DNA of 64,000 bases from Anaeromyxobacter sp. Fw109-5. GTDB lineage: Bacteria; Myxococcota; Myxococcia; Myxococcales; Anaeromyxobacteraceae. The notes under the pieces were generated by a model, which saw only the letters and a program-made list of their open reading frames with translations, ran no database searches and had not been told where the DNA came from. This document shows positions 28,523 to 37,806 of this stretch, one piece after another. Location of the stretch: contig NC_009675.1 in NCBI RefSeq assembly GCF_000017505.1, positions 2,790,001 to 2,854,000 on the forward strand, read 5' to 3'. How positions within the stretch are numbered: position 1 is the stretch's first letter; every line of letters begins with the position of its first letter. The translations under genes were made by a program, and so were the position numbers.

Positions 28523-30760
28523 CTACGCCGCCCCGTCGCCCCGGGCGATGGCGAGGAGCTCGGCGAGCACGCCGCCGGCCGTGCTCGCTCCGCCCACGCC
28601 CGCGCCCTGCACGACGAGCGGCCGCTCCGAGTGCCGGGCGCTCGTGAACGCGACGTACGCCTCCACGCCGACGAGGTGCGCGGCCGGATCGGCGAGCTCG
28701 ACGGCCTCCGGCCCCACCCGCGCGGCCACCCTCCCGTCCGGCAGCGTCTGCACGCGCGCCAGGTGGCGGAGGACCTTCCCCTCCGCGCGGAGCGACTCCA
28801 CGCGCCGGGAGAGCGCCTCGTCGTGCTCGCGCAGCGCGGCGATGAGGGCCTCCGGGGGACCGGGCACGAGCGCCTCGGGAGGGACGAGGGGCTCCACCTC
28901 CACGTCCTCCAGCGCGAGCTGCGCCCCCGTCTCGCGCGCGAGGATGAGGGCCTTGCGGGCGGCGTCGCGCCCGGAGAGGTCGTCCCGGGGGTCCTCCTCC
29001 GCGTACCCGAGCCCGATCGCCCAGCGGGTCGCGAGCGACAAGGGCACCCCGCGCGCGAGCTCGGTGCACAGGTAGCCGAGCGTCCCGGAGAGCGAGCCGA
29101 CGATGGAGCGCACGCGGTCGCCGCTGCGGACGAGCCGGCGCAGCGTGCCGATCACCGGCAGGCTCGCGCCCACGGCGGTGTCGTAGCGGTACTGCCGGCC
29201 GTGGTGCCGGCGCGCCTCGCGGAGCTGCTCGCGCCGGCGCGGCGGCGCCGCCAGCGGCCGCTTGTTCGCGGCGACCACGTCGACGCCGCGCCGGAAGGCC
29301 TGCTCGTAGACGTCCTCCATCCCCTCCGCGGCGGTGAGGTCGACGAGGATCGGGCGCGGCAGCGCGGCGAGCCGGTCGAGCAGGGCCGGCGCGCTCGCGG
29401 CGTCGACGGGCCCCGTCTCCGGCGCGGCGGCGAGCAGCTCGCGCCAGCGGTCCAGGTCGATGCCCGCCTCGTCGAGGAGCGCGCGGCGCCGGTCGGCGAT
29501 CCCCACCACCCGCACCACCGTCTCGTAGTCGAGCTCGAGCTCGGCGCCCTGCGCGCGGAGCTGCTCCAGCAGCTCCGACCCGACCTTGCCCTTGCCCAGC
29601 ACGAGCAGCGACACCCCGTGCTCCGCGTACGCGCGGTCGATCGCGTCGCCCCCCTCGTCCGCCGCCTGGCGCCGGCGCCGCTCGCCGCGGAACTCGGCCA
29701 CCATGTCGGACAGCCGGTCGACGTCGATGAGGAACGCGTCGTGGCCGTGCGGCGAGTCGAGGACGGCGAGCCGCGCGTTCGGCACGAGCGCGGCGACCTC
29801 CCGCTGCTCCCACGGCCAGTAGAGGACGTCGGAGTCGATCGAGACGACCAGCGTGGGCTGGCGGATGGACCGGAGCACCTCGTCGTAATCCCCGCGGGCG
29901 CGCGAGACGTCGTGCGTGTCCATCGCCTTCGTGAGGGCCACGTAGGTCGCGGGGTCGAAGCGGTCGACGAGCAGCCGGCCCTGGTAGCGCAGGTAGCTCT
30001 CGACCGCGTAGACGTCCTCGGTCTGGGGGCGGCGCCCGAAGCGCTGCTCGAACGACGGCTGGCTCCGGTACGAGAGCATCGCCATCATGCGCGCCGCGGC
30101 GAGCCCGGCCTCCGGCGGTTCGGCGGGATCGTAGGCGCCCCCGCCCCAGCGCGGGTCGGCGTAGATGGCCTGGCGCTGCGCCTCGGAGAGGCCGATGCAC
30201 CACGCCGAGTGGCGCGCGGTCGAGGCGATGAACACCACCGACTCCACCAGCGCCGGGTAGAGCAGCGCCCACTCCAGCACCTGCATGCCGCCGAGCGAGC
30301 CGCCGATCGCCATCCGCACTCGGCGCACGCCGAGCGCGTCGACGAGCGCCTTCTGCACCCGCACCATGTCGCGCACGGTGATCGCCGGGAAGGCGCCGTA
30401 GTACGGCCTGCCGGTCCCAGGATCGATCGACGTGGGACCGGTCGTGCCGTAGCAGCTGCCCAGGATGTTCGAGCAGACGATGAAGTCGCGCGCGGGGTCC
30501 AGGGCGCGGCCCGGGCCGAACAGGCGCGTCCACCACTGGTCGGCGTCGGCCGAGCCGGTGAGCGCGTGGCACACGACCACGGCGTTGCCGCCGTCGGGCG
30601 CGAGGGTCCCCCACGTCCGGTACGCGATCTGGACGCGCTCCAGCCGGCCGCCCAGCTCGAGGTCGAGGCCGCCGGGCAGCTCCAGCGTCTGCGTCTCGGG
30701 CGAGACGAACGCCGCGCGCCCCGCCGCGGAGCGATCCGGACTGTCCGTCTTGGAGGTCAT
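28523..30760 (-). CDS. Fused homoserine O-acetyltransferase - homoserine dehydrogenase
   Basis: One continuous 745-residue frame joins two enzymes. Residues ~15-360 are MetX: the nucleophile elbow GGSLGG (153-158, Ser155), an Asp at 309/311 (VSIDSD) and His338/340 (SPHGHD) form the alpha/beta-hydrolase triad that acetylates homoserine with acetyl-CoA. Residues ~381-745 are homoserine dehydrogenase: NAD(P)-binding GKGKVGSEL (389-397), AANKRPL and the GSLSGTLGYL/EEDPRDDLSG catalytic segments. The regulatory ACT domain is absent. The fusion would make homoserine and immediately divert it to methionine. ATG 30760 is preferred over TTG 30799, although neither has a clear ribosome site. Confidence 0.9.
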   Translation of the reverse strand: MTSKTDSPDRSAAGRAAFVSPETQTLELPGGLDLELGGRLERVQIAYRTWGTLAPDGGNAVVVCHALTGSADADQWWTRLFGPGRALDPARDFIVCSNILGSCYGTTGPTSIDPGTGRPYYGAFPAITVRDMVRVQKALVDALGVRRVRMAIGGSLGGMQVLEWALLYPALVESVVFIASTARHSAWCIGLSEAQRQAIYADPRWGGGAYDPAEPPEAGLAAARMMAMLSYRSQPSFEQRFGRRPQTEDVYAVESYLRYQGRLLVDRFDPATYVALTKAMDTHDVSRARGDYDEVLRSIRQPTLVVSIDSDVLYWPWEQREVAALVPNARLAVLDSPHGHDAFLIDVDRLSDMVAEFRGERRRRQAADEGGDAIDRAYAEHGVSLLVLGKGKVGSELLEQLRAQGAELELDYETVVRVVGIADRRRALLDEAGIDLDRWRELLAAAPETGPVDAASAPALLDRLAALPRPILVDLTAAEGMEDVYEQAFRRGVDVVAANKRPLAAPPRRREQLREARRHHGRQYRYDTAVGASLPVIGTLRRLVRSGDRVRSIVGSLSGTLGYLCTELARGVPLSLATRWAIGLGYAEEDPRDDLSGRDAARKALILARETGAQLALEDVEVEPLVPPEALVPGPPEALIAALREHDEALSRRVESLRAEGKVLRHLARVQTLPDGRVAARVGPEAVELADPAAHLVGVEAYVAFTSARHSERPLVVQGAGVGGASTAGGVLAELLAIARGDGAA

Positions 30761-30836
30761 GGAGCGCGGAGGGTAGCGACGGGGGATCCGGGGTGTCAAG
30801 GCGAGGCGGCGTCGGACTCGGCTCGTCGAGCGCGCC

Positions 30837-33044
30837 TCACGGACGCGGGGCGTGCACCGGCGGCGGGGACGCGCGCGCCAGGTGCTCCGCGAGGAACGCG
30901 GCGGTCGCCTCCCAGCGGCGCACCACCGCGGTCGGCTCCGGGATCATGTGGGTCGCGCCCGCCACCGGCAACAGCTCGTAGCGGCGGCCGGCGCGGAACA
31001 GCGCGTCCCCGAGCTTCAGCGCGTGCGAGAAGAACACGTTGTCGTCGGCGGTCCCGTGGACCACGAGGAGCGGGCGCGCGAGGCCCGGGGCCCAGCCGAG
31101 GAGCGAGCTGCGGTCGTACCCGGCGCGGTTCTGCTCCGGCAGACCGAGATAACGCTCCGTGTAGTGCGTGTCGTAGTCGCGCCACTCCGCCACCGGCGCC
31201 CCCGCGACCGCCGCGTGGAACACGTCCGGCCGGCGCAGGACCGCGAGCGCGGCGGCGTAGCCGCCGAACGACCACCCGGTGATCCCCACGCGGCCGAGGT
31301 CCATGGCGGGGAGCTGCGCCGCGAGCGCCCGGAGCCCCGCGATCTGGTCCTCGAGCACGATCGTCGAGAAGTCGCCCTTCACGGCGCGCGAGAACGCCCG
31401 CCCGCGCCGGGTCGTGCCGCGGCCGTCGATCCGCACGACGACGAACCCCTGATCCGCGAGCCACTGCTCGGCGATCATCGGCGCGTGAACGGCGCGCGGC
31501 CCGGACGGCCCGCCGTAGACGTCCACGACCACCGGGAACCTCTCTCCGGGCGCCGCAGCGCGCGGACGAAGCACCGCGGCCCAGAGCCCCTGCCCCTCCC
31601 CGACGCGCCGCAGCTCGGTGGTGGGCGCGAACGGCGGCTCCTCCGCGACGCTGGGCAGCTCCGCGAGCCGCGCCCCGTCCCGGCCGAGCACCACCGTGCG
31701 GGCCGCTCGCGTGAGCGTGGTCCACGTCACCGCCACCGCGCCGCCCTTGCCGGCGGCGACCGCCCTCGCGAGCGTCGGGCGATCCTCTCCGAGCGCGATC
31801 GTCTCGGGGGAGCCGCCTCGTCGGGCGCGCTGCACCACCGTGCGCGTCGGATCCGGCGCGGCGGTGAAGACGAGCTCGTCCGCCTCGCCGTCGTAGCCGG
31901 CGAGCGCCACGAAGCCGGCCGCCGCGGGGACGACGCTCCGCAGCAGCGCACCGCCGGCGCCGCGCAGCTCGACCTCCGGCGCGCCGTTGCGCTCGGTCGC
32001 CCAGTAGAAGCTCCCGTCGACGCGGAAGCGCGGGAAGTCCTGGAAGAGCTCCACCCAGGCGTCGTCGCGCTCCGCGAGCAGCACCCGCGTCGCGCCGCTC
32101 GAGGGATCCGCCGCGAGCAGCCGCACCTCGGTCTGCGCGCGGTTCTGCACGACGAGGGCGAGCGGGCCGCCCCGCTCCCAGCGGACGGTCGCGAGGTACG
32201 GGAACGCCCTCCTGTCCCAGCGGATCCAGACCGGCCGGCCACCCGCCGCCGGGACGACCGCCAGCCGGACGGCGGCGTTCGCCGTCCCGGCGCGCGGGTA
32301 CGCGACCTGCGCGCACGGTCGCTCCGGGCGCGCCGGGTCGCACAGCGCCCGCCGCTCCACCGGCGACTCGTCGACCTCGGCGTAGGCGAGGTGGCGCCCG
32401 TCCGGGGACCACCAGTACCCCTCGTGACGGTCCATCTCCTCCTGGGCGACGAACTCGGCGAGGCCGTTCGAGATCGACGCGGCCCGGGCGCGCGTGAGCC
32501 GCCGCGTCCGCCCCGTCGCGAGGTCGCGGACGTGGAGGTCGCGATCCGCCACGTACGCGAGCGCGCGGCCGTCGGGAGAGAAGCGCGGATCGATCACGCC
32601 GGCCGCGCCCGGCACGGGAGCGGAGGCGCCCGACGCGCGGTCGAGGAGCCAGAGCCGGCCGCCGATCGCGAACGCGATCCTGCGTCCGTCCGGGGACGGC
32701 GCGTAGTGGGTGACGCCGCGCGCGAGGACGCGCTGCCGCTCGAGCCGGGCGGCCTCCGCGGCGGTCGGCTCGAGCGCCGCGCCCACGAGGGCCGCGGGCG
32801 ACACCACCTCGCGCGTGGCGCCGCTGCGGAGATCGGTCTCGAACAGGGACTGCACGCCCGCGCGCGGGCCCGAGCGGAGGAAGAGCGCGGTGCGCCCGTC
32901 CGGATCGACCTTCACGAGCGTCGGCCGCCCGGCGCGGAACCCGCGCGTCTCGGCGAGCTGGCGGAGGAAGGGGTCCTGCGGGGCGGGCGCGGGAGGCTGC
33001 GCCGCCGCCGCGGCGAGGACCAGCGAGCAGAGGAGCGTCACCAT
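30837..33044 (-). CDS. Dipeptidyl-peptidase IV-like S9 serine peptidase
   Basis: A 735-residue exported protease. A short signal peptide (TLLCSLVLAAAAA) opens it. A beta-propeller region with repeated SPDG-type blades (~90-470) and a C-terminal alpha/beta-hydrolase follow. The triad is Ser in GWSFGGY (~590), Asp in HGTADDN (~660) and His in GATHM (~700). EFVAQEEMDRHEGYWWSPDG in the propeller resembles the DPP-IV Glu-Glu motif that recognises the peptide N terminus, which argues for the S9B group (removal of X-Pro dipeptides). Likely periplasmic. ATG 33044 directly precedes the signal peptide. Confidence 0.88.
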   Translation of the reverse strand: MVTLLCSLVLAAAAAQPPAPAPQDPFLRQLAETRGFRAGRPTLVKVDPDGRTALFLRSGPRAGVQSLFETDLRSGATREVVSPAALVGAALEPTAAEAARLERQRVLARGVTHYAPSPDGRRIAFAIGGRLWLLDRASGASAPVPGAAGVIDPRFSPDGRALAYVADRDLHVRDLATGRTRRLTRARAASISNGLAEFVAQEEMDRHEGYWWSPDGRHLAYAEVDESPVERRALCDPARPERPCAQVAYPRAGTANAAVRLAVVPAAGGRPVWIRWDRRAFPYLATVRWERGGPLALVVQNRAQTEVRLLAADPSSGATRVLLAERDDAWVELFQDFPRFRVDGSFYWATERNGAPEVELRGAGGALLRSVVPAAAGFVALAGYDGEADELVFTAAPDPTRTVVQRARRGGSPETIALGEDRPTLARAVAAGKGGAVAVTWTTLTRAARTVVLGRDGARLAELPSVAEEPPFAPTTELRRVGEGQGLWAAVLRPRAAAPGERFPVVVDVYGGPSGPRAVHAPMIAEQWLADQGFVVVRIDGRGTTRRGRAFSRAVKGDFSTIVLEDQIAGLRALAAQLPAMDLGRVGITGWSFGGYAAALAVLRRPDVFHAAVAGAPVAEWRDYDTHYTERYLGLPEQNRAGYDRSSLLGWAPGLARPLLVVHGTADDNVFFSHALKLGDALFRAGRRYELLPVAGATHMIPEPTAVVRRWEATAAFLAEHLARASPPPVHAPRP

Positions 33045-33173
33045 GGGGCCCGTGTCTTAGCACGGGCCTCGCCATGGTTCCGCGGGCGGCGCGCCGATCG
33101 GACGGGGCCTGCGCTCCCAACCCGCCGACCCGAGCGCGTCGAAGGGGCGGGACCCACGGGCGCTGCGACGGGG

Positions 33174-33191
33174 CGCGGTTCGGGAACCGCG
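33174..33191 (-). terminator. Hairpin after the mobB/KGG frame
   Basis: CGCGGTT and AACCGCG pair around a CGGG loop, 10 bases beyond the stop at 33201 on the minus strand. A 7-bp stem with a stable tetraloop and no U-run. Confidence 0.5.
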
Positions 33192-33200
33192 GCTGCCCGT

Positions 33201-33488
33201 TCAGCGCATGCGGCTCGTGCGGGACGTGCGCTTCGCCGCGCCGCGGCGCGCCGTCCCGCGCTTCGTGGTCGCGCCGCGCCGGGTGCCGGTGGAGCTCTTC
33301 GCGGAGGAGCGACCGCCGCGGCTCTTCTTGCCGCCCTTGCGGCCGATCTCCGAGTAGAACTCCGGACCCCGCGCCCGAAGCGTCGCGTTCCCGCCCTTGC
33401 GCCCGGCGTCGCTGCGGGAGGCGCCGCTGCGGCGGCCTCCACGCGTGCGGGCCGTGGCGCTCTTCCGGTTCGTCGTCTTCTTCGGCAT
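33201..33488 (-). CDS. Small basic KGG-motif protein (Con-10/stress-type), possibly an internal start in mobB
   Basis: The product has 95 residues and is very rich in Arg, Lys, Ser, Thr and Gly. Two copies of a GRKGG unit occur (DAGRKGGNATLRARG and EIGRKGGKKSRGG), the KGG motif of the Con-10/YciG stress proteins. The tail is histone-H1-like. ATG 33488 has an AGAAGGGAA ribosome site, which supports independent translation. Yet the same frame is open upstream through mobB, so the segment could also be the C terminus of a longer protein. A DNA-binding or desiccation/stress role is inferred from composition only. Confidence 0.7.
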   Translation of the reverse strand: MPKKTTNRKSATARTRGGRRSGASRSDAGRKGGNATLRARGPEFYSEIGRKGGKKSRGGRSSAKSSTGTRRGATTKRGTARRGAAKRTSRTSRMR

Positions 33489-34082
33489 GCGTTCCCTTCT
33501 CCCGAGCGCCGTCGTGCGCTCGCTTTCCTTCGCGGGAAGGCTGCTCACGGTCGGTGGCACCCGCAAGCGCTGCGCGGGACGGCGGCCGCCGAGCTGGAAG
33601 CGCGCGCAGAGCAGATCGGCGAGCGGCTCGACGTCGTCGGCGTCGAGCAGGGGGACCGGCCGGCGCGCCGCGCGCGCGCCCACGACAGCGAAGACGCGCG
33701 CGTCCCCGTCGGCGAGGAGCGCCCGCGAGACGCCGGGACGGTACACCTCGATCCGCGGGAGCGGCTCGTGCTTGAAGCCCTCGGCGAGCACGAGATCGAC
33801 CTCCGGGAGGAGCCGCGCGAGCGCCCGCGCGCCGCCCGCGGGCGGCCCGAAGTAGGCGAGCCCGCGGGGACCTTCGATGGCCGCGGCCAGCGCTCCCGCG
33901 CGGCGCAGGACGTCGGTGTCCTTCCCGGGGACGTCGAAGGGATGCGCGTGGCTGGTGTGCTTCAGCACGCCCACGCGCACGCCGCGGCCGACCAGCGCGG
34001 GGATGAGCCGCGACAGGAGCCGCGTCTTGCCCGCGCCCGAGGAGCCCGAGACCGCCACGATGGGCGGCCGCCCCGCGCTCAC
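33201..34082 (-). CDS. mobB: Molybdopterin-guanine dinucleotide biosynthesis protein MobB, in frame with a KGG tail
   Basis: Residues ~5-185 are MobB: a P-loop GSSGAGKT at 13-20, then LKHTSHAHPFDVPGKDTDVLRRAGA and VDLVLAEGFKHEPLPRIEVYR. MobB binds GTP and assists attachment of GMP to the molybdenum cofactor. The GTG at 34082 overlaps the moeA stop (GTGA), a classic coupled start. No stop follows the MobB domain. The frame runs on through a ~15-residue linker into the KGG-motif sequence and stops at 33201, giving 293 residues, whereas ordinary MobB has ~170. Either a true fusion or two products from one frame. Confidence 0.82.
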   Translation of the reverse strand: MSAGRPPIVAVSGSSGAGKTRLLSRLIPALVGRGVRVGVLKHTSHAHPFDVPGKDTDVLRRAGALAAAIEGPRGLAYFGPPAGGARALARLLPEVDLVLAEGFKHEPLPRIEVYRPGVSRALLADGDARVFAVVGARAARRPVPLLDADDVEPLADLLCARFQLGGRRPAQRLRVPPTVSSLPAKESERTTALGRRERMPKKTTNRKSATARTRGGRRSGASRSDAGRKGGNATLRARGPEFYSEIGRKGGKKSRGGRSSAKSSTGTRRGATTKRGTARRGAAKRTSRTSRMR

Positions 34083-35245
34083 GCGTCGTCGCCGAGCAGC
34101 CACGCCGTCACCTCCGCGCCCGCGTGGAGATCCCCCGCGTCCGCGGGGACGAGCAGGATCGCATCCGCGAGCGCCGGTCCCCGGACCTGGGCCGCGTCCT
34201 TCCCGAGCGGTCGCGCCCGACCGTCGCCCTCGAGCCGCGCCCACAGCAGCCGCGCGCGACCGGGCTTGCCCGCGGTGGCCTCGGCGAGGCGCACCGGCGC
34301 GGAGAGACGAAAGCGGCGCGCGGCTCCGGCGCGGGCGAGCAGCGCCGGGCGAGCGAACACCTCGAACGCCGCGAGGCACGCCGATGGGCTCCCGGGGAGG
34401 CCGAGCACGGGCGTCGCGCCGAGCAGGGCGAACAGGAACGGCTTGCCGGGCTTCATCGGGACGCCGTGCACGCGCACGTCCGCGCCGAGGCCGGCGAGCG
34501 CCGCGGGGACGTGGTCGCGCTCGCCGATGGACACTCCGCCGATGGTGAGCACCGCGTCGCAGCGGCGCGCGGCGTCGGAGATCGCGGCCGCGACGGCGTC
34601 GAGCCGGTCCTCCACGGCGCGCCGCTCGACCTCCGCCCCGAGCGCGCGCACGAGCCCTGCCACCGCCACGCCGTTCGAGTCCGGCGTGCGCCCGGTGACG
34701 ACCTCGTCGCCGGTGGAGAGCACCGCCACCCTCGCCCGGCGCCGCACGCGCACGGGGTCCGCGCGGACGGCCGCGAGGAGCGCGGCCTGGCGCGCGCCGA
34801 GGCGGGCCCCGGCCTCCAGCGCGAGCCCGCCCGCCACCACGTCCTCGCCCGCGAGCCGCACGTTGTCGCCGCGGCGCGCAGCCTCGAGGAACCGCACGCG
34901 CTCGCCGTCCGGCCGCGTCGCCTCCTCGCGCACCACGGTGTCCGCCCCCGGGGGCAGCGGGGCCCCGGTGAAGATGCGGACGGCGGCACCCGGCGCGAGC
35001 GCCGCGCCCGCCGCATCGCCGGCGTAGCGCGCGCCGGTCACCGCGAGCGTGCACGCTCCGCGAACGTCCTCGGCGCGGATCGCGTAGCCGTCCATCGCGG
35101 AGCAGGTGTCCGGCGGCGCGGGGACCCGCGCGAGGGCGGGACCCGCCAGGTACCGGCCGGCGGCGTCGCGGAGCGCGACCTCCTCGTCGTCGAGCGGCGA
35201 GACCGCGGCGATCACCGCGTCCCGGATGCGGAAGAGCTTCTCCAT
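34079..35245 (-). CDS. moeA: Molybdopterin molybdenumtransferase MoeA
   Basis: A 388-residue protein with the MoeA domains: the N-terminal region with MDGYAIR (~51-57), the central MoCF fold with STGDE (~177-181), IGGVSIGERD and VPMKPGKPFLF, and a C-terminal beta domain. It inserts molybdate into adenylylated molybdopterin to make molybdenum cofactor. It overlaps mobB by four bases, forming an operon. It is divergent from the FNR-like regulator gene, which fits supplying cofactor to anaerobic molybdoenzymes, although no such enzyme lies in this window. ATG 35245. Confidence 0.93.
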   Translation of the reverse strand: MEKLFRIRDAVIAAVSPLDDEEVALRDAAGRYLAGPALARVPAPPDTCSAMDGYAIRAEDVRGACTLAVTGARYAGDAAGAALAPGAAVRIFTGAPLPPGADTVVREEATRPDGERVRFLEAARRGDNVRLAGEDVVAGGLALEAGARLGARQAALLAAVRADPVRVRRRARVAVLSTGDEVVTGRTPDSNGVAVAGLVRALGAEVERRAVEDRLDAVAAAISDAARRCDAVLTIGGVSIGERDHVPAALAGLGADVRVHGVPMKPGKPFLFALLGATPVLGLPGSPSACLAAFEVFARPALLARAGAARRFRLSAPVRLAEATAGKPGRARLLWARLEGDGRARPLGKDAAQVRGPALADAILLVPADAGDLHAGAEVTAWLLGDDA

Positions 35246-35504
35246 GCGCGCGCATCATGCCACGCACACCCCGGCGCGGCGCCGCGCGCGCGCGCGGGAG
35301 GTCCTGCCCGGAGGTCGTTTCGCGGCGAGCTCGCGCGCCGCGCCAAGCAGGCGCCTGGCCGTCCCGTGAAGCGGGGATGGAACGAGCCCCCGATCGAGCG
35401 GGCGCAGTCGCCCGCGCCGGACGAGGCGTCGGCCGCGCCTCCGCAATCCTTGCGCACAGTGGAGGGGCCCCGAACCGCAAACGCAACGTCTGCACGAACC
35501 GCGG

Positions 35505-35510
35505 TATAAA
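35505..35510 (+). promoter_or_regulatory. Candidate -10 box for the FNR-like gene
   Basis: TATAAA lies 27 bases before the GTG at 35537. No good -35 hexamer is found 16-18 bases upstream. Two direct copies of CGAACCGC (35471-35478 and 35496-35503) flank the -35 region and might bind a regulator. Confidence 0.35.
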
Positions 35511-35536
35511 ACCCCGGGCGTACGCGGGCCTAGCTC

Positions 35537-36247
35537 GTGCAAACAGACGCCGATCAAGAAGCTGACTTCCAGCGGCGGGAGGAACTCGAGGTGCTTTCGA
35601 ACGCTCCGATCTCGGACTGCAACGCCTGCTCGCTGGGTCTTGCCTCGCAGGGACGCTGTCGCCTCACCCCCACCACGCGCGAGTCGGGCGCCACCATCTG
35701 CGCGCAGGGGGAGCGCCCGCGGACCGTGTACTTCGTCAAGGAGGGCTTCGTCGCCCTCTCCGCGGTGAGCCCCCGCGGCTCGGAGCTGCTCCTCTCGCTC
35801 CGCGGCCCGACCTCGCTGCTCTGCACCGAGTCGCTGCACGGCGAGCCGTCGCCGTTCGAGGTCCGGGCGCTGTCGCGCGTGAAGATCTGCGGCATCGGCG
35901 GCGACGCGATGTCCCAGTGGATCGGGCCCGAGAAGAGCGCAGCCCGCGTGGTGCTCGACCTCCTCCTCACCGAGTCCCGGGCCCAGCGCGACGAGGTGAA
36001 CTGGCGGCAGGGCGACTGCCTCTCGCGCGTCGCGCGGTTCGCCCTCGCGCACGCGCGGTTCCTCGCCGATCGCCCCAACGCCGTCCGCAAGCAGGTCGTC
36101 GCGCGGCTGCTGGGCATGCGCCCGGAGACCCTCTCGCGCTGCCTCACGAAGCTCGAGAAGGACGGCGTCGTCGACGCCTCGCGCGGCGTCCGCGTGCTCG
36201 ATCACCGCCGGCTGGCGGCCATCGCGATGGAAGACAACGCCGCCTGA
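35537..36247 (+). CDS. FNR/CRP-family transcriptional regulator with N-terminal cysteines
   Basis: The protein has 236 residues. N-terminal Cys28, Cys31 and Cys41, plus a central Cys at 96 or 118, resemble the four Fe-S ligands of FNR. A cyclic-nucleotide-type beta domain follows (~50-125), then a dimer helix and a C-terminal helix-turn-helix (~185-209). The recognition helix RPETLSRCL contains Glu197, Ser200 and Arg201, the ExxSR set by which FNR reads TTGAT/C half-sites. It therefore probably binds boxes like TTGAC-N4-GTCAA at 661-674. An oxygen- or NO-labile cluster is inferred from the cysteines. Divergent from moeA-mobB. The GTG start lacks a good ribosome site. Confidence 0.85.
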   Translation: MQTDADQEADFQRREELEVLSNAPISDCNACSLGLASQGRCRLTPTTRESGATICAQGERPRTVYFVKEGFVALSAVSPRGSELLLSLRGPTSLLCTESLHGEPSPFEVRALSRVKICGIGGDAMSQWIGPEKSAARVVLDLLLTESRAQRDEVNWRQGDCLSRVARFALAHARFLADRPNAVRKQVVARLLGMRPETLSRCLTKLEKDGVVDASRGVRVLDHRRLAAIAMEDNAA

Positions 36248-36295
36248 TCCCTGTTAAGAGAGGGCCGGGCCACAGAGGCGAGAAAGGACTCCCGC

Positions 36296-36505
36296 ATGTT
36301 TCCCAAGCTCGGAATGGGCGAGCTCGTCGTCATCCTGCTGATCGTCGTGATCCTGTTCGGCGCGAGCAAGCTCCCACAGCTCGGCGCTGGCCTCGGCCAG
36401 GGCATCCGCAGCTTCAAGAAGTCGTTCAGCGGCGAGGACGAGGAGAAGCCGTCCACCCCCGGCGCGACTTCCTCGGACGAGGCGTCGAAGGCCAAGCAGG
36501 CGTAG
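36296..36505 (+). CDS. tatA: Sec-independent protein translocase TatA
   Basis: A 69-residue protein with the TatA layout: a short N terminus, a transmembrane helix (~9-24, [13 protein letters not shown]), the hinge [10 protein letters not shown], an amphipathic helix, and an acidic Ser/Asp-rich tail. It forms the pore-like assembly that exports folded proteins such as cofactor-loaded redox enzymes. GAAAGGA precedes ATG 36296. tatB and tatC are not adjacent. A strong hairpin follows. Confidence 0.93.
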
Positions 36506-36550
36506 TCGCGCCAGCTCGCCCCGCTGTAACCAGATCTTGTCCACCCTCTG

Positions 36551-36579
36551 CGGGGGCGAGCGCGTCGCGTTCGCCCCCG
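36551..36579 (+). terminator. Terminator after tatA
   Basis: CGGGGGCGA pairs with TCGCCCCCG around an inner GCG/CGC pairing, starting 46 bases after the tatA stop. Weak T enrichment (CCGTTTCC) follows. The remaining ~210 bases to the next gene show nothing else recognisable. Confidence 0.7.
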
Positions 36580-36789
36580 TGCCGTTTCCGTCTCCAGAGA
36601 CCTGAGGCACGTGGCCGCATCCGCCCCTGAGAGCTCGCCGGCTGCGACTGGCAGCGGGCGACCTGGAGACGCCCCGGGCGTGTCGCGGGCCCGGGCGAGG
36701 CGGATCGCGTCCCACCTCGCCCTCACGATCGGGTCGCGCCGCGGGCATCCCCCTTGAATGGATGTAGGGCACGTACACGGGGGACAGCG

Positions 36790-37212
36790 ATGAAGCGAAT
36801 CCTGGTGGCGGTGGACGGTTCCGACTCCTCCCTCAAGGCGGCGCGCATGGCCGCGGACATCGCGCTCCGCTTCGGCGCCAAGCTGACGCTCGTCCACGTG
36901 GTACCGAAGCTGCTCCTCCCTCCCGACGTGTACGGGCTCACGATCGCCGAGGTCGAGAAGGAGCACCGCGCGTACGCCGATCGGCTGCTCGAGAAGGCGG
37001 TGGAGTCGATCGAGGAGCCCTCGGTCGAGGTCGACACGGCCGTGCTGTACGGCGCGCCCGCGGAGGCGATCGCCGAGACGGCCGCGGCGACCGACGTCGG
37101 GATGATCGTGATCGGCAGCCGGGGTCACGGCGCGGTCGCGCGGATGTTCCTCGGCAGCGTCTCGGACCGGCTCGTCCACATCAGCCCGAAGCCGGTGCTC
37201 GTGGTGCATTGA
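36790..37212 (+). CDS. Universal stress protein (UspA family)
   Basis: A 140-residue single-domain USP. It starts KRILVAVDGSDSS and carries the ATP-binding motif G-2X-G-9X-G-S/T in GSRGHGAVARMFLGSVS (~112-128), followed by SPKPVLVVH. It is therefore probably the ATP-binding type. GGGGGA lies eight bases before ATG 36790. Members respond to starvation, oxygen and redox stress. It is next to a CBS-pair protein and the globin-kinase genes, all on the plus strand, which fits a stress/redox neighbourhood. Confidence 0.92.
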   Translation: MKRILVAVDGSDSSLKAARMAADIALRFGAKLTLVHVVPKLLLPPDVYGLTIAEVEKEHRAYADRLLEKAVESIEEPSVEVDTAVLYGAPAEAIAETAAATDVGMIVIGSRGHGAVARMFLGSVSDRLVHISPKPVLVVH

Positions 37213-37365
37213 GCTCACGGGGCGGCGCCCCGGCGCGCCCGCTTCGCTCGCGGGAGCGGCGCCCTTCGCCGCACCGCCTCCTCGTCGCTGGCGGAGCTCT
37301 CGCTCGTGCTCTCCTCGCCCGACGCGTCTGGAGGTCCCCCGACGGTCGTGCCAGAATCGACCCCC

Positions 37366-37806
37366 ATGATCTCGGTCGCCGACTTCATGTCGAAGGATCT
37401 CGTCACCGTGGGCGAGTCCGACGACCTCGCGCTCGCGGAGTCCCTGCTCCGCCTGAGCGGCATCCGCCACCTCCCCGTCGTCAAGGACGGCCGCCTCGTC
37501 GGGCTCGTCACCCAGCGTGACGTGCTCCGCTCCGGCCAGTCCGGCCGGTCCGGCGCGAGGACGCTGGCGGTGTCGGAGGTCATGACGCGCGACCTCACCA
37601 CCGTCCGCCCGGCCACGGCGCTCTCCCAGGCGGCGCGCCTCATGCTGGAGCGCAAGTACGGGTGCCTGCCGGTCTGCGACGAGGAGGGGCGCCTCGTGGG
37701 CATCGTCACGGAGGCCGACTTCGTCCGCTTCGCCGCCGACGTGGTGCGCGACCTCGACCTCGTCGCAGACGCGGTGCGGGCTCAGGAGCGCGCCGGCCGC
37801 GCTTGA
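37366..37806 (+). CDS. Tandem CBS-domain protein
   Basis: A 146-residue protein made of two CBS domains (residues ~3-58 and ~68-125; repeated VxDFMSKDLVTV / VSEVMTRDLTTV and LPVVKDGRLVG / LPVCDEEGRLVG). Stand-alone CBS pairs bind AMP, ATP, SAM or NADH and act as energy or redox sensors of partner proteins. The partner here is unknown. ATG 37366 starts directly before the first CBS strand. It lies 154 bases after the universal stress gene and 98 before the globin kinase. Confidence 0.85.
   Translation: MISVADFMSKDLVTVGESDDLALAESLLRLSGIRHLPVVKDGRLVGLVTQRDVLRSGQSGRSGARTLAVSEVMTRDLTTVRPATALSQAARLMLERKYGCLPVCDEEGRLVGIVTEADFVRFAADVVRDLDLVADAVRAQERAGRA

Follow-up and report, generated by a model that had tools for sequence, protein, structure and literature searches.

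MobB proteins bind GTP and help in bis-MGD formation, a function that is predicted from sequence for the protein described here. Several NCBIfam-named families join MobB to a second domain in one frame (MobA-MobB, MobB-MoeA, and MobB with an FeS or unknown domain), and in these fusions the partner usually belongs to the cofactor pathway or is a metal protein. MobB and MoeA are put side by side in a tungsten-specific pathway by a recent paper, which also notes MoeA-MobB fusions. Among KGG proteins, YciG, YmdF and STM14_1829 of Salmonella have been described as RpoS-dependent, intrinsically disordered stress proteins (PMC5437024, PMC7161692), and the synthesis of an internal in-frame product has been demonstrated for cas8b/cas11b by Western blot and start-codon mutation (PMC11899642).

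The frame that we describe here resembles each of these systems in part. Like the NCBIfam fusions it holds MobB and a second domain, but that domain is a KGG protein, which in most genomes has a separate start. The NCBIfam MobB-fusion models match the MobB part of our frame, a KGG partner is absent among the models matched, and a limited literature search found no published description of a MobB-KGG fusion. The KGG part has its motif in common with the three Salmonella proteins and is, like them, small and hydrophilic; unlike those standalone members it follows mobB with no intervening stop and carries a long basic tail. As in cas8b/cas11b, the C-terminal part of the longer frame would also be made from an internal ATG, although here the two parts come from unrelated families and the internal product is predicted from sequence. 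It is the MobB-KGG pairing that appears to be new; MobB fusions with other partners and in-frame internal starts were already known.

Organization of the mobB-KGG frame

The window (the whole 64,000 bp stretch of Anaeromyxobacter sp. Fw109-5 DNA that was analysed) comes from a genome, G000, that is a single contig of 5,277,990 bases. Translation of window positions 33201-34082 places a frame of 293 residues plus a TGA on the minus strand, from a GTG at 34082 to the TGA at 33201; the initial annotation gave no strand, and its description of the frame as MobB, a linker and a 95-residue KGG protein is borne out by the translation and the Pfam matches. The MobB core starts at the GTG and comprises residues 1-162 (33597..34082, minus strand). 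Pfam MobB (PF03205) covers residues 8-134 (E 3.4e-32, 111.6 bits, cut-off 26.6), TIGR00176 gives 89.0 bits (cut-off 76.2), the solved MobB structure 1np6 matches residues 7-160 (E 8.9e-24), and the Walker A motif GSSGAGKT (GxSGxGKT) and the other invariant MobB residues are intact (alignment A1, 19 sequences). The window genome has no MobB besides the one in this frame, and MobB is single copy in all five of the genomes tested; these single-copy genomes hold many molybdopterin oxidoreductase matches. Several oxidoreductase matches carry one in-frame TGA (G000:C1:3548889-3550493 and 2273106-2274554, with similar places in relatives) and are possibly selenocysteine formate dehydrogenases.

The KGG protein of 95 residues runs from an ATG at 33488 (Met199 of the full frame) to the same TGA (33201..33488, minus strand). 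Pfam KGG (PF10685) matches residues 238-254 of the full frame, which places the motif at 33321-33371 on the minus strand, with 25.0 bits for the full frame and 27.2 bits for the 95-residue product alone (gathering score 20.4); this is the only KGG match above the cut-off in the window genome. We also built an HMM from 76 modules of standalone KGG proteins, in place of a three-sequence HMM that was too weak, and it gives the window module 50.8 bits. A similar basic, Lys/Thr/Arg-rich N-terminus is seen in standalone KGG proteins from other myxobacteria (MATRKRTTT..., MANKKTQRTSR...). Clusters of several distinct KGG proteins were seen at individual loci (L033, L034, L045, L047 and the archaeal L082-L101).

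Directly upstream of mobB lies moeA, which encodes a molybdopterin molybdotransferase (34079..35245, minus strand; Pfam MoeA_N, MoCF_biosynth and MoeA_C) and whose TGA overlaps the mobB GTG in a shared GTGA. Downstream of KGG is the gene of an S9/DPP-IV-type peptidase (30837..33044, minus strand; Pfam DPPIV_N and Peptidase_S9). Beside moeA, window positions 35537-36505 hold on the plus strand an ORF that by eye resembles a Crp/Fnr-type regulator and a 69-residue ORF that, again by eye, resembles TatA.

The spacer and the probable internal start

Our family sample comprises 24 genomes, 19 of which have a MobB match. MobB runs stop-free into KGG in six genomes: G000 (the window genome), G003 (A. 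terrae), G006 (A. soli), G004, G007 (A. oryzae) and G011. Five of these belong to one genus and G011 to a sister genus, so the mutual support among the six is limited. The initial annotation had raised the question of whether other Anaeromyxobacter strains keep the frame open, or whether they or a corrected sequence would reveal a stop between the domains; the frame is open in four other genomes of the genus and in G011, and no stop separates the domains in any of the six assemblies.

The two domains are separated by a spacer of 36 codons (residues 163-198; 33489..33596, minus strand) that is open in frame and has a non-coding character. Does the open frame by itself indicate selection? For a random 36-codon frame at 70-74% GC, a simple composition model gives a chance of about one half of being open, and the dinucleotides of the spacers themselves give 75%; the spacer also has a second forward frame that is open. 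We therefore reject the open frame as proof of selection, since at 74% GC it is often expected. In its variable part the spacer has indels that come in multiples of three, a pattern that selection for the frame could produce, but these events are too few to claim selection. What goes beyond chance is the arrangement that these sequences present, recurring stop-free in six species, together with a seamless fusion in a seventh (below). The same odds of chance opening (about 0.5-0.75 at 74% GC) would fit an artefact in which a sequencing error removed the mobB stop or a trivial high-GC open frame has no product. Since the frame is open in six separate assemblies, a sequencing error or a strain-specific loss of the stop is ruled out, and both domains are conserved protein families; we judge an artefact of either kind to be extremely improbable.

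The composition and variation of the spacer differ from those of the sequences on its two sides. Across the six genomes GC3 is 0.95-0.98 in MobB, 0.70-0.83 in the spacer and 0.92-0.99 in KGG (0.83 for the spacer versus 0.95 for the MobB core in the window genome), and the pooled spacer deficit has a P of 2e-20. The last 26 spacer codons (33489-33566) are conserved at the DNA level in the five genus genomes, where variable sites at codon positions 1/2/3 number 11/6/7 in the spacer versus 44/31/97 in the MobB core; third positions make up a share of 0.29 of the variable sites in the spacer, whereas no 26-codon window of the core falls below 0.41, and the ratio of synonymous to amino-acid-changing columns is 3:12 in the spacer versus 56:55 in MobB (P 0.03). 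Because its third positions are less variable than those of MobB, the spacer does not appear to be evolving as a protein linker in these five genomes, and with GC3 also against it we find a selected protein linker unsupported. In the AlphaFold model the MobB core is folded with confidence, the spacer is disordered (<50 pLDDT), and the KGG part forms two short helices of modest confidence.

Within the spacer lies an inverted repeat, CGAGCGC-N6-GCGCTCG (33503..33522, minus strand), whose arms are invariant in the five genomes while the second codon of its loop is T, G, R, F or I. The exact 22-base repeat pattern occurs once in the window genome. The repeat may serve as an operator or form a hairpin in the 5' leader. 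A search of the spacer for a sigma-70-type promoter gave none, and the RNA fold of the spacer and leader is no more stable than that of shuffled sequences. A known RNA element was rejected, as there is no Rfam match within 30000-37500, and a dispersed repeat or mobile element was ruled out by the lack of a second full spacer copy in the genome.

A Shine-Dalgarno-type GGGAG (33499..33503, minus strand) lies 10 bases 5' of the ATG at 33488; the ribosome site given in the initial annotation, AGAAGGGAA, corresponds to 33500-33492 on the minus strand. Anti-Shine-Dalgarno pairing at the GGGAG is predicted at -7.4 kcal/mol, a value reached by 7% of ATGs on the minus strand, and is stronger than the pairing predicted for moeA, mobB and the peptidase gene. 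In all six stop-free genomes (G000, G003, G006, G004, G007 and G011) the ATG is conserved and GGGAG or GGGGG precedes it, so that an in-frame internal start codon with a ribosome site is kept throughout, and the attribution of its own start and ribosome site to KGG holds. The internal ATG at 33488 probably gives KGG alone. The spacer that is not protein-like, the invariant repeat, the GGGAG-type site with its conserved ATG and the standalone-like N-terminus lead us to regard KGG as an independent and complete gene that has a control region of its own and is nested, in frame, behind a stop-less mobB.

The intergenic character of the spacer and the separate KGG start with its ribosome site would also be expected if only two separate proteins were made and the fusion did not accumulate, whether by cutting of MobB, by ribosome drop-off or frameshifting, or by transcripts that end before KGG. 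However, there is no stop, a search of the coding strand yielded no intrinsic terminator, and the single-copy MobB would need to be processed in all six species, and we regard this explanation as unlikely.

Relatives and the seamless fusion in G010

In G002, G005 and the other readable relatives MobB stops normally with no KGG behind it, and synteny by tblastn places the peptidase directly behind mobB in the relatives that have no KGG; within the genus the peptidase is downstream with or without KGG. The moeA-mobB order is present at six of the seven relative loci checked (L138, L139, L140, L142, L143 and L144), and at the seventh, L141, MoeA and peptidase matches are absent. G001, which is of the same genus and 99% complete, has no MobB match at E 1e-10, and this may be either a loss or an assembly gap. 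The MobB tree is poorly resolved on gain versus loss of KGG; three changes are needed, and one origin is compatible with it.

At the same locus in G010, a complete genome from a third genus of the family, the KGG module follows only a few residues after the last MobB helix. ATG, GTG and TTG are all absent from this junction, and the usual start of KGG, MTVREAG, is LTVREAG with its L encoded by CTC. GC3 of the junction is 0.975, which is coding-like (one sequence only), and in the AlphaFold model the KGG helices lie close behind the last MobB helix. The G010 tail scores 39.2 bits (E 1.8e-10) against the standalone-KGG HMM, where 5000 shuffled versions of the tail reached 18.0 bits at most; it is below the Pfam KGG threshold, and thus its assignment to KGG rests on the longer module. 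Among 195 genomes, stop-free matches to the G010 fusion that extend well into the KGG module are within the family only, and a few Myxococcaceae-type matches extend slightly past the MobB core. Because the join is seamless and the junction offers no start codon, a true MobB-KGG fusion does exist, and of the new facts presented here this is the firmest. Counting G010, both domains are found in one stop-free frame in the window genome and six relatives.

The obligate fusion in G010, the frame kept in six genomes and the in-frame spacer indels would all suit a selected bifunctional fusion as the only product, with KGG working as the tail of MobB, the spacer serving as the linker and the internal ATG unused. 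This is hard to reconcile with third positions that are far more conserved in the spacer than in MobB, with the non-coding GC pattern of the spacer, with the conservation of the ATG and its ribosome site, and with the absence of KGG from close relatives whose operon is otherwise the same; we consider it quite unlikely.

A comparable arrangement is seen in Myxococcaceae-type genomes, where at L022, L023, L024, L025 and L026 the MobB frame runs stop-free into FdhD (Pfam FdhD-NarQ, E 1e-63 in L023 and L024), whereas at L021, L027, L029 and L030 MobB ends with a stop. As with MobB-KGG, the next gene is entered without a stop and the partner would be fused or nested, but FdhD, unlike KGG, acts in the same pathway as MobB, as a cofactor-sulfurating protein.

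Proposed products of the frame

The initial annotation offered a true fusion or two proteins from one frame by way of an internal start; each option has gained evidence, but they need not exclude one another, since the evidence favours both at once at this locus. The explanation that we prefer, with a probability of roughly 0.65, is that a stop-less mobB runs into a standalone-type KGG gene, so that both a fusion and a separate KGG protein would be made, the fused tail being tolerated without any molybdenum-stress function. In this arrangement a standalone-type KGG gene would sit between mobB and the peptidase gene and share the open frame of mobB. Ribosomes that start at the mobB GTG and finish the frame would produce the MobB-KGG fusion, which would be the cell's only MobB: with no stop between the domains, any full-length MobB must include KGG, provided that mobB is translated and its product is not processed. 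Ribosomes would also start at the ATG at 33488 and make the 95-residue KGG alone, and this shorter protein might also come from a separate transcript under control of the inverted repeat. These sequence features give good support to a dual product at the window locus. The fused tail would be flexible, MobB would tolerate it, and no molybdenum-stress function would be needed; such a tail is plausibly a tolerated passenger. In the G010 lineage the joint would have been completed, with KGG placed directly on the last MobB helix.

A link between molybdenum cofactor assembly and stress is speculative: the spacer shows no constraint at the protein level, and close relatives that have the same moeA-mobB operon lack KGG. 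A version in which the dual-product locus is itself selected would have the disordered KGG tail protect or position MobB and its unstable cofactor intermediates under stress, the repeat set how much KGG is fused and how much is free, and G010 represent the form committed to fusion; we think this rather improbable.

On our preferred explanation of a stop-less mobB and a nested KGG gene, what might the locus mean for these bacteria? One family appears to show stages of fusion at a single locus: mobB alone, a stop-less mobB with an independent KGG, and a seamless MobB-KGG. The missing stop is also a warning that in 74% GC genomes such an absence can keep annotation from recognizing a separate gene. 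Should both proteins be produced, the locus would be a straightforward natural example of a single frame that encodes an enzyme helper as well as a stress-type protein, and in these metal-respiring bacteria each MobB would bear a disordered basic tail.
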